From IMG/VR virus record IMGVR_UViG_3300042479_000770, positions 1 through 27,016 of that record: DNA of 27,016 nucleotides; one strand, given 5' to 3'. The stretch is from a virus. A program made the translations under genes and the position numbers. Under the pieces are notes generated by a model. That model was not told where the DNA came from and made no database searches. It was given only the letters and a program-made list of their open reading frames with translations. Positions 9,008 to 25,759 of this stretch are shown here, piece by piece; position 1 is the stretch's first letter; every line of letters begins with the position of its first letter.

Positions 9008-10366
9008 ATGAAGAAAAAAATATTATTACTATCTGATGATTTAAGAATGACAAGTGGTATTGCCACAATGTCGAAAGAAATTGTGATGGGTACCATTCAC
9101 AAATATGATTGGGTACAATTAGGTGCGGCAATTAAACATCCAGAGTTTGGTAAAGTTGTTGATGTTAACGACGATATTAGAACAAGGACTGGTGTTAAAG
9201 ATGCTAATTTGAAAATTATTCCATATAATGGTTATGGTGACGTTGGTATTCTTCGTAAATTAATAGATGAAGAAAAACCTGACGCCATTTTACACTTTAC
9301 TGACCCACATTATTGGCAGTGGTTGTACGATGTGGAACACGAAATAAGGCAACAAACTCCAATATTATTTTATCATATATGGGATGATTTACCAGACCCA
9401 CAATATAATAGAGATGTTTTTGAATCTTGCGATTGGTTGGGTTGTATATCTAAACAAACGTATGGTATTGTACATCGTGTTGGTAAGAGAACTGATAAAG
9501 TAACATTTAATCCATTGAAGAATTGGCAAATTAGTTATGTTCCTCATGGTATTAATCCTGATTTATTTAAACCATTGGATAGAATATCAGATGATATTAA
9601 TAATTTAATTCATGGTGATAAGAAATATGATTTTGTTTTATTCTTTAACAGTAGAAACATTAGAAGAAAGCAACCAAGTGATGTAATTTATTCATTTAGA
9701 TTGTTCTGTGATATGTTATCAAAAGAAAAGGCAGATAAATGTTTATTACTAATGCACACAAATCCTGTTGATGAAAATGGTACTGATTTACCTGCGGTAA
9801 TTGATGCCGTTTGTAAAGATTACGATGTTAAGTTCACCAATTTAAAATTGGAACAAGATAAGTTAAATGAGATTTACAATGGTGTTGATTGTACAATTAA
9901 CATTGCAAACAATGAGGGATTTGGTTTAACAACCGCAGAGAGTTTAATGGCGGGTGTACCAATCATTGTTAATGTTACTGGCGGATTACAAGACCAATGT
10001 GGATTTGATTATACTGAAGATGATTACATTAATGTAGGTACACTTCACAATAAAGAAGTACATGGCAACATAAATCATGGTGATTGGGTTGAACCTGTTT
10101 GGTCATCGGCAATTAATCTAAATGGTTCGGTACCAACACCATATATCTTCGATGATAGAGTTAATGACAATGATGTTGCAAATGCCATCATGGAAATGTA
10201 TAAAATTGGTAAGAAGAAAAGAAAAGAAAAAGGATTAAAGGGTAGAAAGTTTATGATTAACAATCTATCAAATAAAATAATGTGTGATAAAATGATTGAG
10301 GGTATCGAACAAACCTTAGAGAATTTTAAGCCGAGAAGTAAATTTAATTTATACAAGATTATATAA
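9008..10366 (+). CDS. GT4-family glycosyltransferase (GT-B fold)
   Basis: A 452-residue GT-B glycosyltransferase. The N-terminal domain begins with a strand and acceptor/donor loop (MKKKILLLSDDLRMTSGIAT). The C-terminal domain begins near YDFVLFFNSRNIRRKQPSD (207-225), with the basic residues expected to contact the nucleotide-sugar phosphate, and contains the retaining-GT motif NNEGFGLTTAESLMAGVP (301-318) with the E-x7-E pair at Glu303 and Glu311. It would transfer a sugar from an activated donor to a glycan or protein acceptor in the cytoplasm. It has no membrane helix. It is followed after one base by a second GT4 gene, suggesting the two act in sequence on one acceptor. Confidence 0.88.
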   Translation: MKKKILLLSDDLRMTSGIATMSKEIVMGTIHKYDWVQLGAAIKHPEFGKVVDVNDDIRTRTGVKDANLKIIPYNGYGDVGILRKLIDEEKPDAILHFTDPHYWQWLYDVEHEIRQQTPILFYHIWDDLPDPQYNRDVFESCDWLGCISKQTYGIVHRVGKRTDKVTFNPLKNWQISYVPHGINPDLFKPLDRISDDINNLIHGDKKYDFVLFFNSRNIRRKQPSDVIYSFRLFCDMLSKEKADKCLLLMHTNPVDENGTDLPAVIDAVCKDYDVKFTNLKLEQDKLNEIYNGVDCTINIANNEGFGLTTAESLMAGVPIIVNVTGGLQDQCGFDYTEDDYINVGTLHNKEVHGNINHGDWVEPVWSSAINLNGSVPTPYIFDDRVNDNDVANAIMEMYKIGKKKRKEKGLKGRKFMINNLSNKIMCDKMIEGIEQTLENFKPRSKFNLYKII

Positions 10367-10367
10367 T

Positions 10368-11615
10368 ATGAACAAACCATTTTTATTATTTAGGGGACCA
10401 GTTAAAACAAGAAGTGGATACGGTGCACACTCAAGAGATTTGTTACAAGCACTTTATGAAATGGATTTGTTTGAAATTAAGATTGATAGTTGTATGTGGG
10501 GTTCAACCCCGATGACAGCATTGGAAGATAATTTATTTCATAAATGGATTGAGTCTAATATTGTTAGTCAGTTAGAAAAGACACCAGACATTTACGTTCA
10601 AGTAACCGTTCCAAATGAATTCCAAAGAGTTGGTAAATTTAATATCGGAATTACTGCTGGTATTGAAACAACTATTGCACCTAAGGATTGGATTGATGGT
10701 TGTAATAGAATGGATTTAATCATTACAACGTCCACGTTTTCAAAAGATGTTTTGTTACAAACAGTTTATAATGAGAATGAACAAAACACGGGTAAGTTAA
10801 TCAAACAACACAAAATCGAAAGACAGATAGAAGTACTATTCGAAGGTGTTGATACCAAAATATACAACAACGTTTATAACAACATTGACATTGACATCAA
10901 AGAAGATTTTGCTTACTTGTTTGTTGGTCATTGGTTAAAGGGTGACACAGGTCAAGATAGAAAAGATGTTGGTATGTTGATTAGATGTTTCGCTGAAGCA
11001 TTTAAGGATGTTGAAGATAGACCCGCACTTATACTTAAAACATCATCCGCATCGTTTTCAATTAAAGAAAGAGAAAGTTTTAGAAAGAAGATAGAAGGGT
11101 TAGTGAGTGATTATAAAAATCCACCATCAATCTATTTGTTGTTTGGTGATTTAACTAATGATGAAATGAATAATTTATATAATCATCCTAAAGTTAAATC
11201 AATGGTGACGATTACAAAAGGTGAAGGGTTTGGTAGACCTTTATTAGAATTTACAATGACAGGTAAACCCGTAATCGCATCTAATTGGTCAGGACATAAG
11301 GATTTCTTACCTATGGATAAAGCAATTATGATTGGTGGTAAATTAACTGAGGTTCATGAAAGTGCAGTTGATACTTTTATATTAAAGGATTCTAAATGGT
11401 TTACCGCAAACTACAACGAAGTATCCGAAGTTTTTAAATTGGTTTACAAAGACTATGATAAGTTTTTAGAAAAGTCTATGATGTTGGGTGATGAGAATAA
11501 AGAAAAATTCTCAATGGAAAAAATGAAAGAGAAGTTTAAAGACATCATCAATCCATTCTCAATACAACCAAAAGAACAAAAACTAATTTTACCTAAATTA
11601 ACAAAAATTAAATAA
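10368..11615 (+). CDS. second GT4-family glycosyltransferase
   Basis: A 415-residue GT-B enzyme, not a recent copy of its neighbour. The start has LLFRGPVKTRSGYGAHSRDL (6-25), which corresponds to the GxGxH-type loop of GT4 enzymes. The C-terminal donor domain contains FAYLFVGHWLKGDTGQDRKD and the motif GEGFGRPLLEFTMTGKPVIA (285-304), with the E-x7-E pair at Glu286 and Glu294. It is soluble. The stop is TAA, followed after one base by the next ATG (TAATATG), a spacing repeated through this block and typical of closely coupled genes. The sugar and acceptor cannot be deduced. Confidence 0.87.
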   Translation: MNKPFLLFRGPVKTRSGYGAHSRDLLQALYEMDLFEIKIDSCMWGSTPMTALEDNLFHKWIESNIVSQLEKTPDIYVQVTVPNEFQRVGKFNIGITAGIETTIAPKDWIDGCNRMDLIITTSTFSKDVLLQTVYNENEQNTGKLIKQHKIERQIEVLFEGVDTKIYNNVYNNIDIDIKEDFAYLFVGHWLKGDTGQDRKDVGMLIRCFAEAFKDVEDRPALILKTSSASFSIKERESFRKKIEGLVSDYKNPPSIYLLFGDLTNDEMNNLYNHPKVKSMVTITKGEGFGRPLLEFTMTGKPVIASNWSGHKDFLPMDKAIMIGGKLTEVHESAVDTFILKDSKWFTANYNEVSEVFKLVYKDYDKFLEKSMMLGDENKEKFSMEKMKEKFKDIINPFSIQPKEQKLILPKLTKIK

Positions 11616-12131: not shown

Positions 12132-12372
12132 GAATTTTAAATTTTTTCACGGGGTAATTAGAAGTACGTTAACCGCAACGTGGTCAGCACAAGAACATGA
12201 GCATTATGGTATAGATGCTGAGGCGGAATTAACTAGAATGATGTCGGAAGAAATTGCCAGAGGTATTGATGAAGAAATTATTAATGTAATAACAAGAAGT
12301 ATAAACGGCGGTGGTAATCATGGTTTTGATTATTTAAACCATTGGTTAAGAATGGGGGAAAATAGAGCATGA
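12124..12372 (+). CDS. small protein resembling a segment of T4-type capsid proteins (82 aa)
   Basis: With ATG at 12124 (MVKNFKFFHG) the product is 82 residues. A longer frame from 12085 adds 13 residues but would lie deeper in the previous gene. The central part TATWSAQEHEHYGIDAEAEL followed by TRMMSEEIARGIDEEIIN has the layout I know from the gp23-type major capsid protein, where a W/Y-S/E-x-A-Q-D-L...HG-D-A-E-x-E-L...I-x-x-E-I-x-x-E-I-D-R-E helix pair occurs. The protein is far too short to be a capsid protein itself (about 500 residues). It could be a head decoration protein, a remnant, or a capsid-interacting factor. It overlaps the next start as ATGA. Confidence 0.6.
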   Translation: MVKNFKFFHGVIRSTLTATWSAQEHEHYGIDAEAELTRMMSEEIARGIDEEIINVITRSINGGGNHGFDYLNHWLRMGENRA

Positions 12373-12554
12373 AATGTGAAAGACATAGTTGGGACACGGA
12401 TGATAGAGAGTGGTGTTGGAAATGTGAGGAATTAACAATAAATGAAAATAAAAAGAAATATGAAGATAAGTTTTGCAATAACAGTTTGCAAGGAATTGGA
12501 GGAGATAAAGAGATTAGTACCTTTCTTACTGAAACACAAAAGAGTTCAGGATGA
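12369..12554 (+). CDS. possible small zinc-binding protein overlapping a glycosyltransferase
   Basis: ATG at 12369 overlaps the previous stop (ATGA), as other starts in this block do. The N-terminal 20 residues contain two metal-hook pairs, CERH and CWKC, spaced 9 residues apart (Cys3, His6, Cys16, Cys19), enough for a small zinc knuckle. The remaining 40 residues are encoded in a frame that also carries the start of the next glycosyltransferase (95-base overlap from 12460) and look like low-complexity out-of-frame sequence. So the N-terminal part is plausible as a gene and the tail is doubtful; a frameshift or a truncated former gene is possible. Confidence 0.35.
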   Translation: MKCERHSWDTDDREWCWKCEELTINENKKKYEDKFCNNSLQGIGGDKEISTFLTETQKSSG

Positions 12555-13083
12555 GATAGTGGTTCTCTATGATGAAAAGAATGGTGATAAAGAAGTTTTA
12601 GAATTCTTATTACCATATAATAAATTACCAAATGTACAAACATGGAGGTGTTTTGATTGGAACAATAACTTTGCAGATTGGAAAAATATTCTTAATGGTT
12701 ATTGTGAAGGTGATTACATTTATCAAATCGATGCTGACGAAATGATTAGTGAGTATATGGTTAAGAATTTATCAGACATATTAGAAATGAATCCAGATGT
12801 GGACTTAATATTTGTTCCAAGAATTAATACAGTTCAAGGTTTAACTGATGAACATATTAAAAAGTGGGGATGGAAAATTAACGAAAATGGATGGGTTAAC
12901 TATCCTGACGCACAAGGAAGAATCTATAAGAAAGGAATGAGTTGGTATGGTAAAGTACATGAGAGGATTCTCGGTGGTCAGAAATTTTCATCGTTACCAA
13001 CCGACGATGATGATTATTGTATACAACACCATAAGACAATAAATCGACAAGAAAAACAAAATCAATTTTATAATTCAATATGA
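12460..13083 (+). CDS. GT2-family glycosyltransferase
   Basis: With ATG at 12460 the 207-residue product begins MKISFAITVCKELEEIKRLV, the first strand and helix of a GT-A domain; ATG at 12442 adds six basic residues. The metal-binding DxD motif is in IYQIDADEM (Asp91-Ala-Asp93). GMSWYGKVHERI near the C-terminus matches the xVHE motif seen in many GT2 enzymes. At 207 residues it is a short GT2 with no membrane segment. The stop overlaps the next start (ATGA). It would add one sugar from a nucleotide donor with inversion; donor unknown. Confidence 0.85.
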   Translation: MKISFAITVCKELEEIKRLVPFLLKHKRVQDEIVVLYDEKNGDKEVLEFLLPYNKLPNVQTWRCFDWNNNFADWKNILNGYCEGDYIYQIDADEMISEYMVKNLSDILEMNPDVDLIFVPRINTVQGLTDEHIKKWGWKINENGWVNYPDAQGRIYKKGMSWYGKVHERILGGQKFSSLPTDDDDYCIQHHKTINRQEKQNQFYNSI

Positions 13084-13694
13084 AATATCAATATCCAGAA
13101 CACTTCAAGTATCCAAACGAAAGGATATTCTTTACTGACCATATAGATTTATGGGAAGAATTTTTAGGTCAGTTAAAAAACAAACCAAATATCACTTTAG
13201 AGATTGGTGCATTATATGGCGGTTCCTCTGTTTATATATTAGAAGAATATTGTAAGTTAGAAGGTTCTCATCATTACATCATGGACATCAACACCAATGA
13301 GTTTATAGAAAATAATATTGAACCATATACTGGTAAGGTAAGTTACTTACTTGGTGAATCAGCAGATGCATTTAAAGTTTTGGAACACGATGGTTTAAAT
13401 AAAGAATTCTTAGACTTAATATACATAGATGGTAACCACATGTCTAAGTATGTTTTAGAAGATGCGGTTAACGCTTTCTATTGTTTAAAAGACGGTGGGT
13501 ATCTTGTATTTGATGATTACGGTGGGGGTTGGGAACAACCTAGACATATGCAAGTTAGGACCGCAGCAGATGCGTTTATGGATGCATATGTAAATCACTT
13601 TAAAATATTACACAAAGGATACCAATTAATTTTACAAAAAACAAACTACGTTAACATAATTGAATTTAAAGAAAATTATTATAAAACATTATAA
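13080..13694 (+). CDS. class I SAM-dependent methyltransferase (Methyltransf_24-like)
   Basis: A 204-residue methyltransferase. The SAM-binding loop is TLEIGALYGGSS (39-50). A later DLIYIDGNH (112-120) and GGYLVFDDYGGGW (139-151) are typical of the family that includes cephalosporin/macrolide O-methyltransferases and many glycan-cluster methylases (Methyltransf_24/TylF-like). The Asp pair in IDGNH and FDD is consistent with a divalent metal site. It is coupled to the preceding GT2 gene by an ATGA overlap and followed by a 38-base gap containing a TATA-type site, so it closes the first sub-operon of the block. The substrate is probably a sugar hydroxyl, from context. Confidence 0.82.
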   Translation: MKYQYPEHFKYPNERIFFTDHIDLWEEFLGQLKNKPNITLEIGALYGGSSVYILEEYCKLEGSHHYIMDINTNEFIENNIEPYTGKVSYLLGESADAFKVLEHDGLNKEFLDLIYIDGNHMSKYVLEDAVNAFYCLKDGGYLVFDDYGGGWEQPRHMQVRTAADAFMDAYVNHFKILHKGYQLILQKTNYVNIIEFKENYYKTL

Positions 13695-13732: not shown

Positions 13733-14914
13733 ATGAAAAAAGAGATACCATTATTTAAGGTTTTTATGGCAGACACCGCCGCAGATAAAGTCGCCAAAGT
13801 ATTAAACAGCGGATTTATTGGTCAGGGACCTGTCGTGGATGAGTTTGAAAATACACTTAGTCAATATTTTCAACACCCTTACATTTCGACATTAAACGCA
13901 GCAACATCTGCAGAACATTTAGCGTTACATCTAATTAAGAAACCATTCAGATTTACAAAGGCAGATGGTTATGGTGTTAGAGAAAACGTATGGGACGGTA
14001 TGAAAGATGGTGATGAGGTTTTAACAACCGCATTAACCTGTACCGCAACTAACTGGCCAATACTTGCTAACAATTTCAAAATCAAATGGGTGGATATTGA
14101 CCCTAAGACTTTGAATATGGACATGGATGATTTAGAAAGAAAAATTGGTCCTAAAACAAGAGCAATTATGGTTGTCCATTGGGGTGGTTATCCTGTTGAT
14201 TTGGATAGACTTAGACAAATCCAAGAAAAGTCTTTACGTATGTACGGATTCAAACCAGCTGTCATTGAAGATTGTGCACATGCTATGGGTAGTAAGTATA
14301 AGGGTAAATTGATTGGTACACATGGTAACATCTGTACATTCTCTTTACAAGCAATTAAACATATCACATCAGTTGATGGTGGATTGTTATTCTTACCACA
14401 CGAGGAATTAAATAGAAGAGCTCGTTTATTAAGATGGTATGGTATTGATAGAGACTCACCAAGAAAAGACTTTAGATGTGAAGCAGATATCGAAGAGTGG
14501 GGTTTCAAATTCCATATGAATGATGTCAATGCAGCAATTGGAATGGAGAACTTTAAACACGTTGATGAGATTGTTGGCAAACATAAGTCAAACGCAAAAT
14601 ACTATGACGATAATTTAAAGTATGTACCAGGTTTAACTTTATTAGAAAGAAATCCTGATATGGAAAGTGCGTTTTGGATTTACTCATTGTTAGTTGAAAG
14701 AAAGGGTGACTTCATGAAATATATGAAAGAGTGTGGAATTGCAGTTTCTCAAGTTCACGAGAGAAATGATATTCATACTTGTGTTAAAGATTATCGTGCA
14801 ATGTTGCCTAACTTAGATAGAACTATCGGTAGTGTTATATCAATCCCAATTGGTTGGTGGTTAACAGAAGAAGATAGAAAGTATATTGTGGATTGTATTA
14901 AAAAGGGTTGGTAA
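13733..14914 (+). CDS. DegT/DnrJ/EryC1/StrS-family sugar aminotransferase
   Basis: A 393-residue PLP enzyme that transfers an amino group, usually from glutamate, to a keto group of a nucleotide-linked sugar. The PLP lysine is Lys209 in SLQAIKHITSVDGG, the pyridine-N aspartate is Asp180 in AVIEDCAHAMGSKYKG, and the N-terminal SGFIGQGPVVDEFE (26-39) matches the family's G-x-x-x-x-G-x-x-x-x-x-F-E start. Length and motif order are normal and no key residue is missing. This gene is the best evidence that the block makes an amino sugar. The keto sugar would have to come from a host or phage dehydratase outside the window. Its TAA overlaps the next ATG (TAATG). Confidence 0.9.
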   Translation: MKKEIPLFKVFMADTAADKVAKVLNSGFIGQGPVVDEFENTLSQYFQHPYISTLNAATSAEHLALHLIKKPFRFTKADGYGVRENVWDGMKDGDEVLTTALTCTATNWPILANNFKIKWVDIDPKTLNMDMDDLERKIGPKTRAIMVVHWGGYPVDLDRLRQIQEKSLRMYGFKPAVIEDCAHAMGSKYKGKLIGTHGNICTFSLQAIKHITSVDGGLLFLPHEELNRRARLLRWYGIDRDSPRKDFRCEADIEEWGFKFHMNDVNAAIGMENFKHVDEIVGKHKSNAKYYDDNLKYVPGLTLLERNPDMESAFWIYSLLVERKGDFMKYMKECGIAVSQVHERNDIHTCVKDYRAMLPNLDRTIGSVISIPIGWWLTEEDRKYIVDCIKKGW

Positions 14915-15879
14915 TGGAAAGAGTGGTTTACGATTCATTTTTGAAATCTGATGTAACGGAGTTTGCGTTAGGTTATGATAAAGTTAAAAACCATACTTGG
15001 TATGATAACTTAAATTACATGGTTGATTTATCTAAAAAATATTTCAATGAAGATGATTTCATTATGGACTACTCTTGTGGTACTGGAATTTTTTGTGAGA
15101 GATTATTGAAATCAATGATTGATTGTCCAAGAATTTTAATGATGGACTCCTCACCAAAATATCTAAAACTATCACATGATAAATTTGGTAGAAATTATAA
15201 ATTTCATTTTAGAGTTATCAATTACCTTAAAGATGAAGGTAGACTACAAACAATATCGGAGGTCTTAGGTAAAGAATATGAACAATTATTAGATGGTATT
15301 GTTTGTACAAATGCAATTCACCTTTATCCAACAATAGATGAGACAATTAAATCTTGGAATAAAATTTTAGTTAGGGGCGGTAAGTTATTAATTAATTCAG
15401 GTAACATCTATAACCCACTAATGGGTGAAGAAACCAAATTGATTGACCAAACGGTAAATGAGATATCCCACTTATCATATGACATTGTGAGGGAGAATCC
15501 AAAATATTCCAAATATGTTGATTTAATCAATGATTTTGACTATATTAATAAACATAACACATTAAGAGATAAATATTTTTTACCCATTAGACCCATCGAT
15601 TTTTACACAGATGAGTTAATTAAAAATGGATTTAAAATTGTAGAAGTTAAAACCATTAATGTTGACGCAAAGGTAGACGAATGGTTTGACTTCTTAAAAG
15701 TTTATCACGAAGGTATTATCGGTTGGATTGGTGGTTCTAAAAAAATCACGGGTATTGAACCAAGTGAAGATGAAATCAACGACAGAGTTGATATTATCAA
15801 ATTGGCATTAACAAAAATGTTTAATAACCAAAACGACTTTAAGGCGTGTTGGAACTATATAATTTGTGAAAAAATATGA
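14914..15879 (+). CDS. SAM-dependent methyltransferase
   Basis: A 321-residue class I methyltransferase. I use ATG 14914, which overlaps the previous stop as TAATG, instead of the TTG two codons upstream. Motif I is IMDYSCGTGIFCERLL (50-65), followed by an acidic strand end (ILMMDSSPKYL, 74-84) and, further on, the motif IV/post-motif region (YEQLLDGIVCTNAIHLY and VRGGKLLINSG). It is not similar to the smaller methyltransferase at 13080. In a glycan block it most likely methylates a sugar O or N, but a small-molecule or peptide substrate is not excluded. Confidence 0.8.
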   Translation: MERVVYDSFLKSDVTEFALGYDKVKNHTWYDNLNYMVDLSKKYFNEDDFIMDYSCGTGIFCERLLKSMIDCPRILMMDSSPKYLKLSHDKFGRNYKFHFRVINYLKDEGRLQTISEVLGKEYEQLLDGIVCTNAIHLYPTIDETIKSWNKILVRGGKLLINSGNIYNPLMGEETKLIDQTVNEISHLSYDIVRENPKYSKYVDLINDFDYINKHNTLRDKYFLPIRPIDFYTDELIKNGFKIVEVKTINVDAKVDEWFDFLKVYHEGIIGWIGGSKKITGIEPSEDEINDRVDIIKLALTKMFNNQNDFKACWNYIICEKI

Positions 15880-16445
15880 AAGTAGGTTGGAACGAGGAGA
15901 TTAAAAAAGAATTAGGATATTGTGGTAACAACGTTGTGATTGGTCATAACGTTGTTTTTACTAACCCTAAAAATGTGTTCTTAGGTGATAACGTTAGGAT
16001 TGATCCATTTTGTTTAATTACAACCGCATTGGAGGTTGGTAGTTACGCTCAAATATGTTCTCATGCGGTACTAGGTGGTGGCAACCAACATAAGATTACT
16101 TTAGGTAAATGGAATTTCATTGGGTATGGTTCCAAACTGTTCTGCGCATCGGAAGATTATAGTGGTGAGTTTGGTCCTGTAAATGAATACTGGGGTAACA
16201 ATAAAATTTTTAGAGGTGATATCACATTTAAAGATTATTCAGGAATAGCGTCTGACGTTATGGTTTTACCAGGAGTTACCTTCCCTGAAGGTTGTACCAT
16301 TGGTGCTAAAAGTTTTGTCTACTCAAAATCAGAATTAAAAGAGTGGTCGGTTTATTTAGGTAACCCATTATCTTTCCATAAAGAAAGAAATAAAGAAAAT
16401 GTTATCAACTTTTCAAACGACCCAAATTTTTTAAAGAGTAGATGA
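15876..16445 (+). CDS. left-handed beta-helix (hexapeptide) acyltransferase
   Basis: A 189-residue protein with hexapeptide-repeat sequence: NVVIGHNVVFTNPKNVFLGDNVRIDPFCLI and later GDITFKDYSGIASDVMVLPGVTFPEGCTIGAKSFVY show the I/V/L-G-x-x-x-x periodicity of the left-handed beta helix. The shape matches sugar O- or N-acyltransferases such as those that acetylate amino sugars at C4 or C3, which work as trimers with acyl-CoA or acyl-ACP. His71 (ILGGGNQH region, about 64-72) may be the catalytic base, but I am not certain of the exact residue. It overlaps both neighbours as ATGA and lies downstream of the aminotransferase and upstream of KAS III and SDR. Confidence 0.82.
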   Translation: MKVGWNEEIKKELGYCGNNVVIGHNVVFTNPKNVFLGDNVRIDPFCLITTALEVGSYAQICSHAVLGGGNQHKITLGKWNFIGYGSKLFCASEDYSGEFGPVNEYWGNNKIFRGDITFKDYSGIASDVMVLPGVTFPEGCTIGAKSFVYSKSELKEWSVYLGNPLSFHKERNKENVINFSNDPNFLKSR

Positions 16446-17199: not shown

Positions 17200-18081
17200 A
17201 TGAGAAATTTTAAACAAAATCATGAAGAAATGAACTGGCCGTGGGTGGAATCCCCTTTCTTCAATGAATTAATTAAACATCAGGAATTAACTGATGAACA
17301 AAAAGAATTGGCCATAAAACTCAACAAAGATGGTTATATCATTTTGGATTTAGGATTGACCGATGAACAAATCGAATCATTTAAAACTGAGATTGACACT
17401 TTAAATGATAGAGATACTGTCGTTACTCAAGCGGATGGATATCACTATTCAAAAGGTAAGAGAATATTTGAGGGTTGGAAAGATAGTGAGATGTTACAAT
17501 CTCTTTCTTTGAATCCTGTGGTTATGGATACGTTAAGATTACTTTACAAGAGAGAACCTTACCCATTCCAAACAATCACATTCAATTATGGTTCTAATCA
17601 ACCATTACATAGTGATTTAATTCACTTCGATTCAATGCCGCATAGATGGTTAACAGCGGTGTGGGTAGCCTTAGAAGATATGACCGACCAGAATGGTTCA
17701 TTGTTGTATGTTCCAGGTTCCCATAAACTACCCATATTTGACTTCTACGACCTTAAAGTTAAAGTTCCTGAGTATGGTAAGCAATTCGATAGTTACGCCG
17801 AATATGAGGAGTTTATTAGACAACTGGTGGAGGTACAAGAATTAGAAGTAAAACCATTAATCTGTAAGAAGGGTCAGGCTCTTGTTTGGTCGGCTAACTT
17901 AATACATGGTGGTGACATTATCAGAGACCCAAATAGTACACGTTATTCACAAGTGACTCACTACTATTACGATGATTGTGATGTTTATTATTCTCCTATG
18001 TTCTCAGAAGCATGGAAAGGTGATTTTAAAACAAAGGATTTATCGGGTAAAAATATAAGAGAATTTAAACATACAAAATAA
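17200..18081 (+). CDS. phytanoyl-CoA dioxygenase (PhyH)-like Fe(II)/2-oxoglutarate oxygenase
   Basis: The 293-residue protein has the iron-binding triad of PhyH-type oxygenases: His137 and Asp139 in PLHSDLIHF and the distal His236 in NLIHGGD, with Arg248 (STRYSQVTHYY) in the place of the 2-oxoglutarate-binding basic residue. GSLLYVPGSHKLP (166-178) between them is a recognisable PhyH stretch. The family hydroxylates or oxidises diverse small molecules, lipids and sugars. In this block it may hydroxylate an acyl chain or a sugar carbon. It ends in a TAATG overlap with KAS III, so the two genes are probably linked in function. Confidence 0.85.
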   Translation: MRNFKQNHEEMNWPWVESPFFNELIKHQELTDEQKELAIKLNKDGYIILDLGLTDEQIESFKTEIDTLNDRDTVVTQADGYHYSKGKRIFEGWKDSEMLQSLSLNPVVMDTLRLLYKREPYPFQTITFNYGSNQPLHSDLIHFDSMPHRWLTAVWVALEDMTDQNGSLLYVPGSHKLPIFDFYDLKVKVPEYGKQFDSYAEYEEFIRQLVEVQELEVKPLICKKGQALVWSANLIHGGDIIRDPNSTRYSQVTHYYYDDCDVYYSPMFSEAWKGDFKTKDLSGKNIREFKHTK

Positions 18082-19010
18082 TGAGCATAAAAATAGTAGG
18101 TATCGGTGCATATGTACCCGAAAAAGTTTTAACAAATAAGGAGATTGAAAAAATGGTCGATACTGAAGACCAGTGGATTCAAGATAATTTAGGAATTAGA
18201 GAAAGAAGAATTAGTTCCGATGACCAACTAAGTTCAGACTTGGCAGTTAAGTCAAGTATATCTGCAATTCATGATGCAAACTTAACAGTTAATGATATTG
18301 ATTTCATTATTATGGCAACATCATCACCTGACAGAATTAGTCCATCAACCGCTTGTTTATTACAAGAGAAGATTGGTGCGTTTAATGCTGCTTGTGTTGA
18401 TATTAATGCTGTTTGTCCAGGATTTCTATATGGATTACAAATTGCAAAAGGATTGTTATCTATCGGTCAATACAAAAACATATTATTGGTTGCGTCAGAA
18501 ACTTATTCTAAGTTAACTGATTGGTCAAGACGTGATTGCGTATTCTTTGGTGATGGTTCAGGTGCGGTTGTTCTACAAAGAGATGAATCAAACTATTGTG
18601 AAATTGATTTATACGCTGATGGTACAGGTAGAGAGGCTTTTACCGTTCATCATAATGAATATTTCTCAATGATAGGTAAAGAAATCTTTAAGGGTGGAAC
18701 CACTAAGTTACCGTCATCTATACAATCTTTATTAGAAAGAACTGGTGTTGATAAAAATGATATTACACATGTAGTTCCTCACCAACCAAGTATTAATATT
18801 TTAAAGAAGACCGCGGAAATATTAGATGTGGATTTTTCTAAATTTGCAACATCGATGGGTGAATATGCAAACACCGCGGGTGCATCTATTCCCATTACAC
18901 TTAACAAACTTTACGAACAAAATAAATTAAAGAAAAATGATTTATTACTCCTAACAACAATTGGGTCTGGATGGGTATGGGGTAGTGGATTAATTAAATG
19001 GACAAAATAA
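18081..19010 (+). CDS. beta-ketoacyl-ACP synthase III (FabH-like)
   Basis: A 309-residue KAS III-fold enzyme with its catalytic triad: Cys112 in VDINAVCPGFLYGLQ, His234 in VVPHQPSIN and Asn264 in YANTAGASIP. These correspond to Cys112, His244 and Asn274 of E. coli FabH. Trp32 (DQWIQDNLGIRERR) matches the CoA-binding Trp. GDGSGAVVL and TTIGSGWVWG are further family marks. It should condense acetyl-CoA, or another short acyl-CoA, with malonyl-ACP. In phage context a role in bulk fatty-acid synthesis is unlikely. Together with the adjacent SDR and the beta-helix acyltransferase, it more likely makes a short acyl group for a sugar. No acyl carrier protein is in the window. Confidence 0.9.
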   Translation: MSIKIVGIGAYVPEKVLTNKEIEKMVDTEDQWIQDNLGIRERRISSDDQLSSDLAVKSSISAIHDANLTVNDIDFIIMATSSPDRISPSTACLLQEKIGAFNAACVDINAVCPGFLYGLQIAKGLLSIGQYKNILLVASETYSKLTDWSRRDCVFFGDGSGAVVLQRDESNYCEIDLYADGTGREAFTVHHNEYFSMIGKEIFKGGTTKLPSSIQSLLERTGVDKNDITHVVPHQPSINILKKTAEILDVDFSKFATSMGEYANTAGASIPITLNKLYEQNKLKKNDLLLLTTIGSGWVWGSGLIKWTK

Positions 19011-19654
19011 TGAAAAAAATATTATTAATTGGAGGAACGGGGGGATTAGGGAATCAACTAACTAAACATTTAAGTTTAAACTATACATGTCTTTCAGTTG
19101 GTTCTAAATTATTAGACGTAACTAACGAAGAACAAGTAAAAGAATTTCTTAATGATGTGGATTATGACATTATAATTTATCTTTCGGTTAAAAATATCGA
19201 CGGATTAATTCATAAACAAACTAAGGAAACAACTGAATCTCAATTAAATGTAAATTTATTTGGGTTTTTGAATGTTCTTCGTCATTCAACTAATAAACTT
19301 AGAGAAAAATGTTTCGGTAGAATCATTTATATATCTTCAGTATTATCTAAGAAACCTATTAGAGGTACTGGTATATATTCGGCAAGTAAAGCGTTCTGTG
19401 ATAACTTAATTAAAACATATTCATTAGAGAATTCAAAATACGGAATTACATCTAACTCCATTCAATTAGGATATTTTGAGGGTGGATTAACAGATAAAGT
19501 TCCTGTAGACATTTTACAAAATGTAAAAAATAGTATATCTTTAAAAAGATTGGGTAAGGTTGCAGAAATGTCAACTTTAATCAAAACAATAATCGATACC
19601 GAATATATAAACGGTACAAACATATCAATTACTGGTGGTTATGAAAATGAATAA
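19010..19654 (+). CDS. short-chain dehydrogenase/reductase, FabG-like
   Basis: With ATG 19010 (TAATG overlap with KAS III; another ATG at 18998 lies inside it) the product has 214 residues. It has the classical SDR marks: LLIGGTGGLGNQ (5-16) for NAD(P), NVNLFGFLN (80-88) with the active-site Asn, IIYISSVLS (105-113), and the catalytic pair Tyr123 and Lys127 in IYSASKAFC. The C-terminal GTNISITGGY is the usual end of FabG-type reductases. The order KAS III followed by SDR matches the first two steps of fatty-acid elongation, making a 3-hydroxyacyl product from acetyl and malonyl units. Confidence 0.88.
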   Translation: MKKILLIGGTGGLGNQLTKHLSLNYTCLSVGSKLLDVTNEEQVKEFLNDVDYDIIIYLSVKNIDGLIHKQTKETTESQLNVNLFGFLNVLRHSTNKLREKCFGRIIYISSVLSKKPIRGTGIYSASKAFCDNLIKTYSLENSKYGITSNSIQLGYFEGGLTDKVPVDILQNVKNSISLKRLGKVAEMSTLIKTIIDTEYINGTNISITGGYENE

Positions 19655-20378
19655 ATTTTTAATTATTTTGGCATATTATGAAAGGCCAAAAATCGTACTA
19701 AACTCATTAAAATCAATTTTAGATATTTCATATCCAGAATTTGAAGTTCACTTTATCGACGATGGTTCAACAAATAGAGGAGAACCAATTGTTAGAGAGG
19801 TTTGTTCTTCAATAATTGATAAGTTTACATTTCATTATATAGATAATACTATTGAACAAAAAAAGGTACAGGGTGGTAGTATACATGGGAAGTATCTCAA
19901 TTTAGCCATTGAACAAAGCGACGCGGACCATGTTATTATTCTATGTGATGATGATGCCATTTTTCCACACTTTCTAACTAAATTGAATGTGTTTTTAAAT
20001 AAGGAAGAAAATTTAGATAAAAAATATTTCTATCATAACATGGTATTATACAATAGTTTAACGGAACCTTACACTGTTGGTGCCGAAAGAAAAGATTTAA
20101 GTTATTTTACCAATCAATGGAAAACACCAATACATTGTTCAAGTAGAGTTGACTCTTCACAAGTAACCTACTCAAGAGAGGCATTTTTTAATGATGGTTT
20201 ATCTTATCCGGCACCTCAAACATCAGGTTTAGATGCTGCAATTTATGAACAAATGTTTCAAAAATGGGGACCTTGTTATTATAGCAGTTTAATATCACAA
20301 GTAAAATCAAATAACGAAGACAATTTAATTTGGAAGGATAAAACAGATAATATGTTTATAACTAAAGACATGAAATAA
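19647..20378 (+). CDS. GT2-family glycosyltransferase
   Basis: I take ATG 19647 (MNKFLIILAYYERPK, 243 residues); GTG 19635 and ATG 19641 are alternative starts. The GT-A signature is visible: first strand and loop, VHFIDDGSTNRG (34-45), and the metal site VIILCDDDAIFPH (96-108) with Asp101-103. A further QTSGLDAAIYEQMFQKWG near the C-terminus is in the position of the acceptor-site helix. It overlaps the SDR stop by 8 bases and the next gene as TAATG. No membrane segment is present. Confidence 0.85.
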   Translation: MNKFLIILAYYERPKIVLNSLKSILDISYPEFEVHFIDDGSTNRGEPIVREVCSSIIDKFTFHYIDNTIEQKKVQGGSIHGKYLNLAIEQSDADHVIILCDDDAIFPHFLTKLNVFLNKEENLDKKYFYHNMVLYNSLTEPYTVGAERKDLSYFTNQWKTPIHCSSRVDSSQVTYSREAFFNDGLSYPAPQTSGLDAAIYEQMFQKWGPCYYSSLISQVKSNNEDNLIWKDKTDNMFITKDMK

Positions 20379-21487
20379 TGAATATAACATTCGTACTTGC
20401 AGTATATAATAAATTAGATTTAACACAGGAATGTTACAATCGTTTACGTAACATATACCCAACAGCACCTTTGGTGATTAGTAGTGGTGGTTCATATGAT
20501 GGAACCAAAGAATGGTTGGAATCATTGGAAGATAAGAACCTTTCTTTTATTCATGATGATGATAGGTTGACATTTTCTGAAACATATAATGCGGCAATCA
20601 AACTTGTTGATACTGAAAAACTTGTGTTGATTCACAACGATATGGTAATTGGTGAACAGTTTTTAGAGAACTTAGATAGATTATTAGATGAGAATCCAAA
20701 TACATTATTATCCTATACAACAATTGAACCCCCAATTTTTAGAGGTCATCAAAGAGCAGGTAAAGTATTATTAGATTTGGGTTCGGGGTTTGATAACTTT
20801 GACCAATATAATTTTAATGCTTATGTGGACCAATGGAAAGATAGTAAGAACCTATACAATGGTGCGGTGTTCTTTATGTCAGGATTTAAAAAGATGTTTG
20901 ATGATATTGGTGGGTTTGATGGTTTCAGTTTTGTACCCGCATTTTGTGAGGATGATGATTTCTTAATCCGTGCGAAACTAAAAGGTTATAATTTAAAAAC
21001 GTGTGATTCTGCAATCACCTATCATTTTGTTTCGCAGACATCAAGATTTAGTGATGATTACAAAAAAGATAGAATGTTATATGAGGTTTCATCTAACAGA
21101 AACTTTGTTAGAAAGTGGGGAGTACCAATCTCAGCATTCAATGAACTTAGGTATTGGGAAGAAGATAACTTTACTTATAAGACTTTTAATATGGGTTTAA
21201 CTACTCGTAATAGAAATAGATTAATGGAAGTAGAACCATTCTTCGATAAAATCGATTTAGGGGAGATTCCTGAGACTTATATTGAAAATGAACAAAAGAA
21301 TACACGATACGATTTAAGGTCGAAATTTACCCTTACAGATACGGTTGATGTGATGATTACGGAGGTTGATCAATTCACAGATGACGACATTAGAACTTTA
21401 CATAAAATAAGGTTATCGATACCTTACTATGAGCCTGGTGAATACCAAATAGGAAATATGATGATAGTTATTAAGAAAACTATTTAA
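20378..21487 (+). CDS. GT2-family glycosyltransferase with C-terminal extension
   Basis: A 369-residue protein. The first 260 residues are a GT2 domain: TFVLAVYNKLDLTQECYN, ISSGGSYDGTKEWL (34-47), VLIHNDMVI (83-91) with the metal-binding HND at 86-88, and DIGGFDGFSFVPAFCEDDDFLIRAK in the acceptor region with the ED..F motif. The last 100 residues form an extra domain (about 270-369) ending in acidic and beta-type sequence (VDVMITEVDQFTDDDIR), of unknown role, perhaps for acceptor or partner binding. It is coupled on both sides by TAATG. Confidence 0.86.
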   Translation: MNITFVLAVYNKLDLTQECYNRLRNIYPTAPLVISSGGSYDGTKEWLESLEDKNLSFIHDDDRLTFSETYNAAIKLVDTEKLVLIHNDMVIGEQFLENLDRLLDENPNTLLSYTTIEPPIFRGHQRAGKVLLDLGSGFDNFDQYNFNAYVDQWKDSKNLYNGAVFFMSGFKKMFDDIGGFDGFSFVPAFCEDDDFLIRAKLKGYNLKTCDSAITYHFVSQTSRFSDDYKKDRMLYEVSSNRNFVRKWGVPISAFNELRYWEEDNFTYKTFNMGLTTRNRNRLMEVEPFFDKIDLGEIPETYIENEQKNTRYDLRSKFTLTDTVDVMITEVDQFTDDDIRTLHKIRLSIPYYEPGEYQIGNMMIVIKKTI

Positions 21488-22335
21488 TGAATATACTTGT
21501 AACCGGAGGAGCTGGATTCATAGGTACCAATTTAGTTAAAAGACTTTTAAAAGATGGTCACGATGTAACATCGTTAGATAACTACTTAAGTGGTTTTAGT
21601 TCTAATCATCAAGATGGTGCAAATTATATATGTGGTGATGTTAGAAACTTATCGATATTAGATGATGTGAAATATGATGTTATATTTCATTTAGCGGCCA
21701 TCGCAAGAATACAACCATCATTCAAACATCCTGTTGAATATTTTCAAACAAATACTAATGGTACATTGAACGTGGTACAATATTGTATTAAGAATGATAT
21801 ACCACTAATTTATGGTGGGAGTAGTTCACATCATAGTGGTAAGTTTAAAAATCCATACACTTTTAGTAAAGATATTGGTGAGGAAATAGTTAAACTTTAT
21901 CAGGAACATTTTGGTTTAAAATCATCAATAACTCGTTTTTATAATGTATATGGTCCTTACCATTTAAAAGATGGTGGTTATAGTACAGTTATTGGTAGAT
22001 GGGAGAAACAATATGATGATGGTGACCCTTTAACCATATATGGTGATGGTTCTAAGAGGAGGGACTTCACACACGTTGATGATATTGTTAATGCGTTAAT
22101 TAAGATATGTGATAAACAAGTGTGGGGGCACACATTTGAATTGGGTAGAGGTCAAAATTTCTCGCTGAATGAGGTTGCTGATATGTTTAAAAAAGATAGA
22201 GTTTATATGGAAGATAAACCAGGAGAAGCTCAAGAAACTTTATGTGAAAGTACATTAGCTAGATTAATTTTAGATTGGATACCAATCGTAAATCTAAATG
22301 ATTATATAGATGAGTATAAAAAAAAGGGACTATAA
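21487..22335 (+). CDS. NAD-dependent nucleotide-sugar epimerase/dehydratase (GalE-like extended SDR)
   Basis: A 282-residue extended SDR. The dinucleotide site is LVTGGAGFIGTNL (4-16); Asp31-Asn32 (SLDNYLSG) follows the second strand as in NAD-binding GalE-type enzymes. The catalytic residues are Ser112-114 in YGGSSSHHSG, Tyr124 and Lys128 in NPYTFSKDIGEE. GDGSKRRDFTHVDDIV is a signature of nucleotide-sugar epimerases. It would convert a UDP- or dTDP-linked sugar, for example by C4 epimerisation, supplying a donor for the glycosyltransferases. It is shorter than GalE (about 338), mainly at the C-terminus. Its stop codon lies in the loop of the terminator hairpin at 22326-22341. Confidence 0.88.
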   Translation: MNILVTGGAGFIGTNLVKRLLKDGHDVTSLDNYLSGFSSNHQDGANYICGDVRNLSILDDVKYDVIFHLAAIARIQPSFKHPVEYFQTNTNGTLNVVQYCIKNDIPLIYGGSSSHHSGKFKNPYTFSKDIGEEIVKLYQEHFGLKSSITRFYNVYGPYHLKDGGYSTVIGRWEKQYDDGDPLTIYGDGSKRRDFTHVDDIVNALIKICDKQVWGHTFELGRGQNFSLNEVADMFKKDRVYMEDKPGEAQETLCESTLARLILDWIPIVNLNDYIDEYKKKGL

Positions 22336-22853: not shown

Positions 22854-23861
22854 TTAAATTATCGTCAATAATGCATAAGTAATCATAATAGATATCCACA
22901 CAATTAAAGCCTTCAAGTAGGTCATAAATCCAGTGTGGAAATACTTCTGACCGATTGGTAGACATTTATGTGATGGGGATATCAAATATGCTGAATATTC
23001 CAATGTAAAGAATAATACGAAATATTGCATACCAAATACACTCGTTAATAAACTAACAATACTCGCATATTTTGCGGAAGATCCCAACATAAATGATGAT
23101 AGAAATGATATCATTGCAACAACTAGAATGTGTTCAGGTTTACTATATTGTTTAATATACCCTTCAATTACATTATAATATGAACCAACCAAGTTACCAA
23201 GAATAATAACCAACGCCACTATCCATATTAATTCCCAATCAATATACCCTAATATTTTATTCCAACTCTTAGAGTAATATACTAACCATACTGTAAATCC
23301 AGTAAAGAAACCAAAATAGTATTGGGTAAAGAATACACACATTAATATGGTTACTAAAAATGGTATAACCACCATAGTTATATTTTGCATATTAATTGGT
23401 CCATCCTTAACTTCGATATCAATCTCATCATCTTCTAATGATAAAATGTAATAGGTTACATACAAGACTGAAATTAAAAGTAATGGCCAAATATATGACA
23501 TGAATTGCATATAGGTTAAACCTAATACCGCCATTGGAATGATAACTGTTTTCTCCAATGGTGACCACAGATAATAGTGATGTGTTGCAAGATAGTCAAT
23601 GATGCCAAACTTCTTACGTTTCTTATTATCTATAGGTGCAATACTATTCAACATAGATGCTGATAACGCAACACGTCCAGGAATAGGTAAGATACCACCA
23701 AAGAGTGACACTAAAAATACCACCATTCTTTTAGACTTAACTTTTTGTTCAAGTAGTCTGAAGATGTCCATAAGGTATCCTCTTTCTTTGAGGATACCTG
23801 TTACGAACATAATGAATATTAAATAGACAAGAAACTCTTGTCCTTTGATTAGAATTGACAT
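22854..23861 (-). CDS. DUF401-like multi-pass inner-membrane permease
   Basis: A 335-residue polytopic membrane protein with about nine hydrophobic segments. Two conserved loops support the family: SLFGGILPIPGRVALSASML (53-72), like the GLLPMPGGA..SA loop of DUF401 (PF04165), and SAYLISPSHKCLPIGQKYF near the C-terminus, like its SP-H-CL..EYF loop. IDYLATHHYYLWSPLEKT in the middle is another loop in the place of the family's INYWFRHxWE. DUF401 is in the ion-transporter superfamily of carboxylate/anion permeases; substrates are unknown. It is about 60 residues shorter than usual, missing an N-terminal part. It lies two bases after the receptor gene (TAATTATG). Confidence 0.7.
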   Translation of the reverse strand: MSILIKGQEFLVYLIFIMFVTGILKERGYLMDIFRLLEQKVKSKRMVVFLVSLFGGILPIPGRVALSASMLNSIAPIDNKKRKKFGIIDYLATHHYYLWSPLEKTVIIPMAVLGLTYMQFMSYIWPLLLISVLYVTYYILSLEDDEIDIEVKDGPINMQNITMVVIPFLVTILMCVFFTQYYFGFFTGFTVWLVYYSKSWNKILGYIDWELIWIVALVIILGNLVGSYYNVIEGYIKQYSKPEHILVVAMISFLSSFMLGSSAKYASIVSLLTSVFGMQYFVLFFTLEYSAYLISPSHKCLPIGQKYFHTGFMTYLKALIVWISIMITYALLTII

Positions 23862-23863: not shown

Positions 23864-25636
23864 TTAAAAATTATATTTAAGGTTTAAATTAATACTTCTT
23901 GTTGGTAAATCAACTGACGATCCCCAGACTCTACTAGCATCATTAAATAAGTTATAAAACAACATTGTGTATTCTAAATTTTTATACTTTGTGGTGTATC
24001 CAACGTTCACCAATCTCACACCTTTATTGTGTAAAAATTGTCGAACATCATTTCTATCTGCAAATGATAAAGATTGATCAATTGGTTGATATCTACCTTC
24101 CACCCATAGCTTATTATAATTTAGTTTGATGTAGCCAAAATATGGTACTGTTTTATCAACTGGTTCTGTTGTTCCTGTTAATCTTTTAACACCATAAACA
24201 TATTCTGCTCTAGCATTCACACCTAGTTTAGTTCCAAACAAACTATCATTAAAATAACCTAACGTTGCGCCATTTACTGAGACACCACCAATGTTATCGG
24301 TCCTAAATACGTTTGTCGATAGTACGGTTACATTAAATGCATCATCTAATTCTTTGAAGTAAACATCAAAATATAAATTACTTCTTTTATAACCAAATCG
24401 ATATGTTTGACCTCTCTCTTGTATTAAATCCGGGTTTGGTAATTGTGTACCTCTACCATTTGTCATTGCTTGTTTAATCATCAAATAACTTGGTGCGTTT
24501 AAGCTATTGTCATAACTTGCAAATAGACCTTTGTATCCAACAATTGCTGAATATTCAAAACCATTAAATGGATCAATATCAGTTATTTGAACATTCTTTA
24601 ATCCTAAACTTGTGTAAACTTTTACTTTATAAATTTCATTAATCCAACGAATACCATGCTTTGTTGTTTTATAATCATCGTTTGATACCCCGCCAACTAA
24701 ACCATTTTCATATCTTATTTTTTCGATTGTGTTTGTTGAATATATACTAAATGAATGTGGTAATTGATATTCAAGATTTGCGGTATATGCGTCTAGGTGA
24801 CTAGCAACTTTTTTTGTCCCATCTAAAATATCTTCCGCACTATTTTGATATGCAAGATTTACACGTAGTCTGTTTAAATTCATCTCATGATTAACAAACA
24901 AATATCTTTGTAGTTCCCACGTATAAACCGCCGGTCTTTGATAACCAGAACTTCTGAAACCACCGTTCCATCTATCTGTTCTTTCTAAATCATTTGATTG
25001 TGAAAAAATTAAAGTTGTTTTTTGTGTTGAAGACCAGTTGGCTTCAGACACCAATGCTTTTTGGTTGTAAGCACTGTGTTGAAATGTACTATCTGGAGAT
25101 ATAACATTACCATAATCGATGTTGTTAAAACCAATACCAAATTTCTTACCTTTATAAGATGCTGATTGGCTAAATCCATCCGTACCACCCACATAATTTA
25201 ATCCAACATGTGATGATTGTACACCAACCTTTCTTTCGATTGTTCCACCAATATTACCACCATCTGTAATAGAAATTAACTTTGTAAATTCTAGTGGAAC
25301 CCATCCAAAATATTGATTTGGTCCAGTTCTAAATAAACCGTTATTAACCCTAATACCATTAATTGATTGGTCAACTTGATTACCAGTAAACGCACCAACA
25401 TATGGACTTAATTGTCCCGGACTTGTTTCTTGAATGCGTGCAGAGTTCAAATATACTTTCGGATTTTTTATTACTTGTTGCACCTGATAGTTGGTGCCAC
25501 CAACAACAACAACTTCTTTTAATTCTATTGAAGCTGTGTCTTTTTGAGTTGTACTGTTACCTTTTTGTCCAAATGACATAGTGGTAGTAAACAATAGTGC
25601 TAACATTAGCGATAGCATTGTGATTGTTTTTCTCAT
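23864..25636 (-). CDS. TonB-dependent receptor-like outer-membrane protein
   Basis: With ATG 25636 the 590-residue product has a clear signal peptide (MRKTITMLSLMLALLFTTTM, cleavage likely after SFG at about 23). It is followed by a TonB-box-like IELKEVVVVG (37-46), a plug-domain-like region (about 47-140, with GQLSPYVGAFTGNQVDQSIN and GIRVNN), and then alternating beta-type sequence to a C-terminal Phe (LNLNLKYNF end), the outer-membrane signature. It is short for the family (usually 700-1000) and lacks the carboxypeptidase-like domain common in Bacteroidota receptors. The longer reading from 25753 is rejected because it runs through the tRNA. A receptor of this type in a phage is unusual. 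Confidence 0.75.
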   Translation of the reverse strand: MRKTITMLSLMLALLFTTTMSFGQKGNSTTQKDTASIELKEVVVVGGTNYQVQQVIKNPKVYLNSARIQETSPGQLSPYVGAFTGNQVDQSINGIRVNNGLFRTGPNQYFGWVPLEFTKLISITDGGNIGGTIERKVGVQSSHVGLNYVGGTDGFSQSASYKGKKFGIGFNNIDYGNVISPDSTFQHSAYNQKALVSEANWSSTQKTTLIFSQSNDLERTDRWNGGFRSSGYQRPAVYTWELQRYLFVNHEMNLNRLRVNLAYQNSAEDILDGTKKVASHLDAYTANLEYQLPHSFSIYSTNTIEKIRYENGLVGGVSNDDYKTTKHGIRWINEIYKVKVYTSLGLKNVQITDIDPFNGFEYSAIVGYKGLFASYDNSLNAPSYLMIKQAMTNGRGTQLPNPDLIQERGQTYRFGYKRSNLYFDVYFKELDDAFNVTVLSTNVFRTDNIGGVSVNGATLGYFNDSLFGTKLGVNARAEYVYGVKRLTGTTEPVDKTVPYFGYIKLNYNKLWVEGRYQPIDQSLSFADRNDVRQFLHNKGVRLVNVGYTTKYKNLEYTMLFYNLFNDASRVWGSSVDLPTRSINLNLKYNF

Positions 25637-25669
25637 TTTGTTTTTGTTTAAGAAAAGTTTATAAAATTG

Positions 25670-25759
25670 CGGGGAGGAAGAGATTCGGACTCTCGATTGA
25701 ATGTTAAGTCCAATAGCAGCTTCGGAGGCTGTCGGTTTAAACCACTCACCCACCTCCCC
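25670..25759 (-). tRNA. tRNA with long variable arm (class II), anticodon CCG by position
   Basis: Acceptor stem GGGGAGG (25759-25753) pairs with CCTCCCC (25677-25671), followed by discriminator G. D-stem GGT/ACC encloses GAGTGGTTTAA. The anticodon stem CAGC/GCTG closes a 7-base loop CTCCGAA with U33 and A37 in place, putting CCG at 25725-25723; position 27-43 is an A-C mismatch. A long variable arm, ATTGGA-CTTAACA-TTCAAT, and T-stem GAGAG/CTCTT follow. No CCA is encoded. The body and G73 resemble tRNA-Ser, but the anticodon CCG would read the Arg codon CGG. It is on the same strand as, and 34 bases before, the receptor gene. Confidence 0.8.

Follow-up and report, generated by a model that had tools for sequence, protein, structure and literature searches.

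A stretch of viral DNA of 27,016 nucleotides (IMG/VR virus record IMGVR_UViG_3300042479_000770, positions 1 to 27,016; hereafter the window) contains three overlapping genes, encoding a PhyH-family oxygenase, a beta-ketoacyl-acyl carrier protein (ACP) synthase III (KAS III) and a FabG-like short-chain dehydrogenase/reductase (SDR), in the midst of a cassette of glycan genes (Table 1). Based on comparison with viral and bacterial loci and with solved structures, the cassette probably encodes a phage-borne glycan pathway with an exchangeable acyl module, composed of a left-handed beta-helix (LbH, hexapeptide) acyltransferase, PhyH, KAS III and the SDR, which would place a hydroxyacyl group onto an amino sugar. 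The genes themselves, the intact catalytic residues of KAS III, SDR and PhyH, the purifying selection on them, their residence in phage, and the linked but shuffled arrangement of the module are directly established. Phage glycosyltransferases and amino sugars of giant viruses are already known, and what would be new here is a phage carrying a step of acyl-chain synthesis. In the open-licence literature we found no phage that condenses and reduces an acyl chain, in the manner of fatty-acid synthesis, for use in a glycan, which is weak evidence of novelty.

Three coupled genes and their phage residence

The original prediction, made from the window alone, described three coupled enzymes with TAATG at both joins, and the open reading frames (ORFs), the Pfam matches and both joins bear this out: the ATG of KAS III at 18081 overlaps the stop codon of PhyH, and that of the SDR at 19010 overlaps the stop codon of KAS III. 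Although the mechanically called SDR ORF starts at 18998, the start at 19010 is preferred because the predicted Tyr123/Lys127 numbering fits it and because three relatives (L016, L022, and L023) also start there. KAS III matches PF08545 with 82.2 bits (cut-off 24) and PF08541 with 94.2 bits (cut-off 26.6), and passes the curated fabH subfamily TIGR00747 (314.8 versus 292.1 bits). Its predicted Cys112/His234/Asn264 triad is present and invariant in seven viral KAS IIIs, and 57 of 58 sequences in the alignment contain it, L048 being cut off before the His and Asn; the genome and viral scans for KAS III (alignment A1) required short motifs of the RDCVFFG and EAFT-HH types, so that the presence of these motifs was imposed by the search, whereas L099-L103 were obtained by a motif-free search. 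The SDR matches PF00106 with 74.0 bits (cut-off 26.6) and PF13561 with 73.8 bits (cut-off 27), and is a classical SDR with a GGTGGLG motif in the window and with S114, Y127, and K131 (numbered from 18998) invariant in nine rows; Tyr127 and Lys131 are the Tyr123 and Lys127 of the original prediction when counted from 19010. The two top matches of the SDR among solved structures are acetoacetyl-CoA reductases. In PhyH, H137-x-D139, H236, and R248 are kept in all 10 rows, and its solved relatives, all low-scoring, hydroxylate varied substrates including phytanoyl-CoA. One alignment (A3) has N-terminal start artefacts in L020, L024, and L026. The ratio of nonsynonymous to synonymous substitution (dN/dS) was 0.02-0.14 over the three genes in 12 comparisons between relatives, with dS near saturation in several, and PhyH, KAS III, and the SDR are under strong purifying selection.

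Seven further viral contigs, ranging in size from 11 to 269 kb, encode a KAS III with 92-100% identity to that of the window; in three of them KAS III is identical, and these bear different metagenome numbers. In the 269-kb relative, KAS III lies at 15.7 kb, and genes for a T4-type major capsid protein and a terminase follow at 174.6 and 182.4 kb, respectively. Because this record combines the cassette with these two genes, the cassette is phage-borne. First among the matches listed for its capsid protein are Rhodothermus phage RM378, a 484-kb uncultured phage, Flavobacterium phage vB_FspM_immuto (hereafter immuto), and Microcystis phage Mel-JY01, with 30-44% identity, and a Bacteroidota host is plausible. 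The phage collection yielded no close KAS III relative, the best match having 42.2% identity over 58% of the query and the best at a coverage of at least 80% having 39.1%. Twenty-four records matched: 19 unannotated (Bacteriophage sp. from human faeces, 10; Listeria, 5; Staphylococcus, 2; Enterococcus, 2) and five annotated (Helicobacter, 3; Acinetobacter, 2). We take most of these to be FabH of the usual kind or host DNA within phage records. Three of them, MT835740, OR848703, and Acinetobacter phage MD-2021a, match the SDR as well as KAS III. Eight records of the collection match the SDR, all below 33% identity, and none matches PhyH. The earlier remark that a phage making such a sugar would be unusual has to be qualified, since numerous viral contigs carry the module, even though this collection gave no close relative.

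Linkage of the acyl module and the subtype of KAS III

A profile scan for the SDR, which required two short motifs, identified 50 viral loci in 36 lineages (groups at crude string similarity >0.9). Neighbours were counted within six genes of the SDR, with limits of 60 bits for LbH and KAS III and 100 bits for PhyH and GNAT acyltransferases. An acyltransferase is present in 35 of the 36 lineages (LbH in 30, GNAT in five, and never both at the score limits used), and the sole lineage without one is cut at a contig end. KAS III accompanies the SDR in 24 lineages and PhyH in 26. A DegT-type match occurs in 33 lineages (18 full-size, 13 of ~195-285 aa, and two weak), and the three others comprise two near contig ends and L168. 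The genes are found in many orders, including PhyH-KAS III-SDR, KAS III-SDR-LbH-PhyH, SDR-KAS III-LbH-PhyH, LbH-KAS III-SDR-PhyH, DegT-KAS III-SDR-GNAT, and PhyH-SDR-LbH. Since the linkage is kept despite these changes of order, the genes most simply belong to one pathway, and the replacement of LbH by GNAT in some loci indicates that acyl transfer is the common step. That the module stays linked across 36 viral lineages while its gene order is reshuffled suggests a diversification of sugars by large phages akin to that of bacterial O-antigens, which bears on the concealment of phages from hosts and defences or on alteration of the host surface.

In a KAS III tree of 54 rows (L048, L095, L096, and L097 omitted), the 11 viral rows form one group (support 96/91), which lies with 36 bacterial rows (94/81), while seven housekeeping-type rows, six labelled so by lower identity and one by tree position, are separate (100/99). 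The window KAS III therefore groups with those of polysaccharide clusters, apart from housekeeping-type FabH. The residue at the primer gate, which we take to correspond to Phe87 of E. coli FabH, lies outside the motifs required by the search; all 11 viral rows have Ser, the 36 bacterial rows have Ala (32), Cys (2), Ser (1), or Val (1), and the seven housekeeping-type rows have Phe (6) or Val (1). By both tree placement and gate residue (Ser87), the window KAS III does not class as a housekeeping FabH, and the gate residue suggests a different or larger primer. Three Bacteroidota genomes (Olleya, Pedobacter, and Pontibacter) each have a KAS III in a gene cluster as their best match, with 48-49% identity, the remaining matches having 28-39%, and the neighbours in Olleya and Pontibacter include GNAT acyltransferases, DegT enzymes, and sugar transferases. 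Among 33 bacterial KAS III loci (neighbours counted as ORFs of at least 75 aa), an SDR is the adjoining ORF in 20, lies four genes upstream in four, and lies two genes off in one (housekeeping type by the tree); the other eight, some of which end at a contig edge, have none.

Proposed pathway, known systems, and alternatives

The reactions that we infer would proceed as follows. DegT would aminate a nucleotide-bound 4-keto sugar, its presumed substrate. KAS III would join a short acyl-CoA primer, most simply acetyl-CoA, to malonyl on the ACP of the host, and the SDR, a predicted 3-ketoacyl reductase, would yield a 3-hydroxyacyl thioester, most simply 3-hydroxybutyryl, which the AntD-like LbH would move to the amino group of the sugar. 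PhyH may add one more hydroxyl, on the acyl chain or on the sugar and at an unspecified stage, and the methyltransferases and glycosyltransferases would complete and attach the sugar, either to the virion or to the host surface. By comparison this core appears well supported, and the acyl identity, the oxygenase step, and the target remain predictions.

The original prediction placed an aminotransferase and a beta-helix acyltransferase just upstream of the three genes. Both are there, although the helix has to be specified as left-handed. In a profile search against solved structures, the LbH protein matched AntD chains with 130 bits and the next structure with 54 bits, and a fold search with its AlphaFold model (predicted local distance difference test, pLDDT, 67) placed AntD entries at ranks 1-7 with Z scores of 14.2-14.7. 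AntD (3vbi-3vbp) is thus the closest solved relative by sequence and fold alike, with 28-30% identity. According to the entry titles, these structures contain dTDP-4-amino-4,6-dideoxyglucose, and 3vbj contains 3-hydroxybutyryl-CoA. LbH is therefore predicted to be an N-acyltransferase acting on an amino sugar.

The same logic has been proposed or tested for two bacterial loci. The viosamine island of Pseudomonas syringae encodes the aminotransferase VioA, VioM, VioT, the KAS III VioS, the acyltransferase VioB, the reductase VioR, and an ACP; its product is Qui4N with 3-hydroxybutyryl and 2-O-methyl groups on flagellin, and deletion of vioR abolishes the modified viosamine (PMC3927599). Like this island, the phage cassette combines an aminotransferase, methyltransferase, glycosyltransferase, KAS III, acyltransferase, and reductase (families, not sequences, being compared), but it is phage-borne, has no acp gene that we could find, and has an extra PhyH oxygenase. 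Because none of 17 viral records has a dedicated ACP, we regard the cassette as working like the viosamine island rather than as a member of it. In Flavobacterium psychrophilum, the O-polysaccharide genes wfpC-G, which encode ketosynthases, an ACP, a reductase, and an acyltransferase, have been proposed to supply 3,5-dihydroxyhexanoyl on Qui2NAc4N (PMC6519341), in line with the earlier remark that some Flavobacterium O-antigens carry such acyl groups. Both this locus and the phage cassette have a 3-ketoacyl-ACP synthase, a reductase, and an acyltransferase, whereas F. psychrophilum has two ketosynthases plus an ACP, its acyltransferase is called a pglD homologue rather than being AntD-like, and no oxygenase is named in the accessible part of that paper. 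More generally, (R)- and (S)-3-hydroxybutanoic acids are the commonest fatty-acid N-substituents of bacterial surface glycans (PMC10609480), and several such substituents have been reviewed in marine bacteria (PMC3210612).

Among viruses, Mimivirus makes N-acetyl viosamine for its own fibrils (PMC10117803), so that the making of an N-acylated amino sugar by a virus has a precedent. That pathway likewise yields an N-acylated and O-methylated 4-amino sugar for the particle of the virus, but the group is N-acetyl rather than hydroxyacyl, the virus is a eukaryotic giant virus, and the main text of that paper contains neither 'acyltransferase' nor 'oxoacyl' as a word. FabG has also been described as a potential auxiliary gene of an Aeromonas phage (PMC11372344). 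The cultured phage immuto encodes two GT4-type glycosyltransferases (GT4a and GT4b), a GT2-type glycosyltransferase (GT2a), DegT, and an epimerase in the same order as the window, with 44-60% identity. However, none of its 14 cassette proteins matches KAS III, SDR, or PhyH, nor does the whole record at E 1e-5, and between the framework genes it has a mini-DegT and a different acyltransferase candidate, gp171, which is annotated as a pilin glycosylation protein and matches the LbH profile weakly (19 bits). Since immuto shares the framework and lacks the acyl module, the module of the window looks like an exchangeable insert. As immuto is cultured (host Flavobacterium sp. LMO8), the framework, though not the acyl module, is open to testing.

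Several observations weigh against the proposed pathway. The AlphaFold model of LbH is mediocre and its AntD superpositions have a root-mean-square deviation (rmsd) above 12 (12.4 for Z 14.7). In addition, of the two residues that were mutated in AntD entries, matched here by eye from alignments, Asp94 corresponds to Glu93 in the window (Asp in two of eight rows, L072 and L078) and Ser84 to Gly, so that neither is kept identically. The gate of KAS III differs from that of housekeeping-type FabH, and its primer may therefore not be acetyl-CoA. This KAS III subtype is also sparse among its bacterial relatives (at E 1e-75, six of 395 genomes from the phylum of Olleya). As for PhyH, 16 of 395 genomes match at E 1e-20, with 43% identity at best, and these nearest bacterial relatives mostly lie away from KAS III: one of nine inspected loci has both, ~7 kb apart and on opposite strands. 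The SDR falls far under the curated FabG equivalog TIGR01830 (88.9 versus 297.75 bits). No ACP was found in any of the 17 viral records, which may be incomplete; but among 21 bacterial genomes carrying a KAS III of this subtype, seven have a single PP-binding match genome-wide, which in Olleya lies ~190 kb away from KAS III, and use of a housekeeping ACP is thus likely. Finally, four of the 17 viral records, all fragments, have no KAS III at all, and 12 of the 36 SDR lineages have none within six genes (L165 being near a contig end). Among these, L143/L144 have an SDR 74% identical to that of the window, with PhyH and SDR abutting. Where the SDR is kept without KAS III, it would use a host-made 3-ketoacyl group or another substrate. 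Accordingly, the earlier claim that KAS III and a ketoreductase make a 3-hydroxyacyl group for an amino sugar is favoured by the logic of the two bacterial loci and by the AntD likeness, but the pair is not obligate.

These loci without KAS III give some room to the alternative that the SDR is not the partner of KAS III, and that SDR and PhyH modify the sugar or a host-made acyl group while KAS III is an optional enzyme that alters the chain, for example by adding two carbons. In the 12 lineages the SDR does stand with LbH and mostly with PhyH, in L016 PhyH directly abuts the SDR at the position occupied by KAS III in the window, and the small gate residue could admit a longer primer, such as 3-hydroxybutyryl for elongation to 3,5-dihydroxyhexanoyl as in F. 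psychrophilum. However, the SDR directly adjoins KAS III in most of the bacterial loci (20 of 33), and the solved structures that it matches best are acetoacetyl-CoA and 3-oxoacyl reductases, so we consider this alternative rather improbable, though it deserves to be kept in mind. In loci without KAS III (L146, three genes; L160, two; L153 and L166, one each), a scan of seven neighbouring genes found no acyl synthase; four of them gave matches, to a glycosyltransferase, a mini-DegT, an LbH-type protein and, weakly, a nucleotidyl/phosphotransferase, and the remaining three gave none. Separately, a 502-aa gene of L016 was considered as a replacement acyl-making enzyme and was rejected, as it encodes a double glycosyltransferase.

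It is very unlikely that the three genes are phage copies of FabH and FabG serving membrane lipid or fatty-acid synthesis of the host. KAS III does score over the fabH subfamily cut-off, but a housekeeping lipid role is disfavoured by the tree, in which housekeeping-type FabH is separate, and by the gate, which is Ser in every viral row and Phe in six of the seven housekeeping-type rows. Furthermore, the genes sit amid glycosyltransferases and sugar genes, and LbH or GNAT is near the SDR in all but one of the lineages. Even less credible is a decaying, functionless acquisition of host DNA: the variable gene content fits decay, as does nothing else, whereas the low dN/dS, the triad intact in 11 of 11 viral rows, and the single phage-specific KAS III group do not. 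Beyond the proposed pathway, one may speculate that T4-related large phages assemble a virion glycan themselves by combining a conserved framework with plug-in acyl modules, that the product here is an amino sugar with a polyketide-like hydroxyacyl group, oxygenated once again by the 2-oxoglutarate oxygenase of the phage and not known from bacteria, and that the capsid-like ORF at 12124-12372 marks its use on the capsid; taken as a whole, we find this extension doubtful.

The surrounding cassette and other features of the window

The neighbourhood of the three genes is that of a glycan pathway, with two GT4-type and several GT2-type glycosyltransferases, two methyltransferases, DegT, LbH, and an epimerase/dehydratase (Table 1).

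Table 1. Genes of the glycan cassette in the window
Feature	Position	Strand	Evidence
GT4-type glycosyltransferase (framework)	9008..10366	+	PF20706 28.1 bits (cut-off 26), PF00534 27.3 (26.4), phrog_2170; 47% to immuto gp181
Second GT4-type glycosyltransferase (framework)	10368..11615	+	phrog_2170 73 bits; PF00534 25.7, just below cut-off; 44% to immuto gp180
82-aa protein with short T4-type major-capsid-like segment	12124..12372	+	phrog_138 major head protein, E 4.5e-5
GT2-type glycosyltransferase (framework)	12442..13083	+	PF00535 22.9 bits, just below cut-off 23.3; 49% to immuto gp178
Methyltransferase (Methyltransf_24 / RMNT_CmcI)	13080..13694	+	54.6 and 30 bits
DegT/DnrJ sugar aminotransferase	13733..14914	+	PF01041 247 bits; 57% to immuto gp177
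Methyltransferase	14908..15879	+	PF08241 23.6 bits (cut-off 21.2)
LbH (hexapeptide) acyltransferase, AntD-like	15876..16445	+	PF00132 55.9 bits; AntD by profile and fold
GT-A-fold glycosyltransferase, 247 aa	16442..17185	+	model pLDDT 91; E109-D110-D111 invariant in 8 rows
PhyH-family Fe(II)/2-oxoglutarate oxygenase	17200..18081	+	PF05721 79.6 bits (cut-off 22); HxD...H and Arg invariant
KAS III, polysaccharide-cluster subtype	18081..19010	+	TIGR00747, tree, triad
FabG-like SDR, predicted 3-ketoacyl reductase	19010..19654	+	PF00106/PF13561; acetoacetyl-CoA reductases best solved; Ser/Tyr/Lys invariant
GT2 glycosyltransferase	19635..20378	+	PF00535 46 bits
GT2 glycosyltransferase	20378..21487	+	PF00535 41.8 bits
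NAD-dependent sugar epimerase/dehydratase	21487..22335	+	PF01370 159 bits; 60% to immuto gp170

The closest solved relatives of DegT are 4zwv/4xau ('putative aminotransferase', presumably AtmS13) and CalS13 (4zas), with 416 and 382 bits against the Protein Data Bank and the next at 131 bits. DegT belongs to the DegT/DnrJ superfamily and scores below the PseC equivalog cut-off (210.4 versus 423.5). The protein directly upstream of PhyH has no Pfam, PHROG, or NCBIfam match; in structural comparison its model lies closest to SpsA and further GT-A transferases (Z 15.2, rmsd 2.7 over 179 residues), and we assign it with confidence, on the strength of this model, as a GT-A-fold glycosyltransferase. 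None of the best 25 NCBIfam rows for the epimerase/dehydratase was over its cut-off.

For the capsid-like ORF, the orthologue in L012 matches phrog_138 with E 7.6e-14, and Gp23 matches were seen at the equivalent gene in relatives, most of them below the Pfam cut-off. The immuto gene at this position has no capsid-protein match. The location of this ORF inside the cassette is a hint, though only a hint, of virion glycosylation. Its orthologues diverge fast and keep their frame.

Mini-DegTs of ~200 aa at three loci (L174:10080-10679, L160:9155-9787, and L072:12981-13577) have partial Pfam matches and a kept stretch of the SFQ-x2-K-x4-GRGG type. Mini-DegTs were seen in 13 of the 36 SDR lineages, counted as hits of 195-210 aa plus one of 285 aa in L159; because the profile held one unrelated 222-aa protein (L146), hits of 208-222 aa in L146, L157, and L168 were ignored. 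The mini-DegT of immuto, gp172 (214 aa), is annotated as a transaminase.

On the minus strand, the product of 23864-25660 has a signal peptide and, as read from its sequence, resembles a TonB-dependent outer-membrane barrel; it has no Pfam, PHROG, or NCBIfam match. The L071/L140 contig has a different barrel-like protein of 294 aa in this slot, the common part being mainly the signal peptide, and the position is possibly an exchangeable outer-membrane slot. The start of the barrel ORF is artefactual, as the long ORF call extends into a tRNA-Arg (ccg) gene at 25669-25759 (minus strand). The adjoining gene (22854-23861, minus strand) encodes a DUF401/CitMHS-type permease and matches phrog_14035, of unknown function, with 279 bits. 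Two overlapping ORFs at 25803-26492 and 26455-27003 (minus strand) cover positions 302-519 and 117-295 of phrog_1458, respectively, and as these are successive parts the gene seems to be split. The thymidylate synthase encoded at 5018-6202 (minus strand) has 394 aa against a Pfam model of 266 positions, and hence contains extra sequence.

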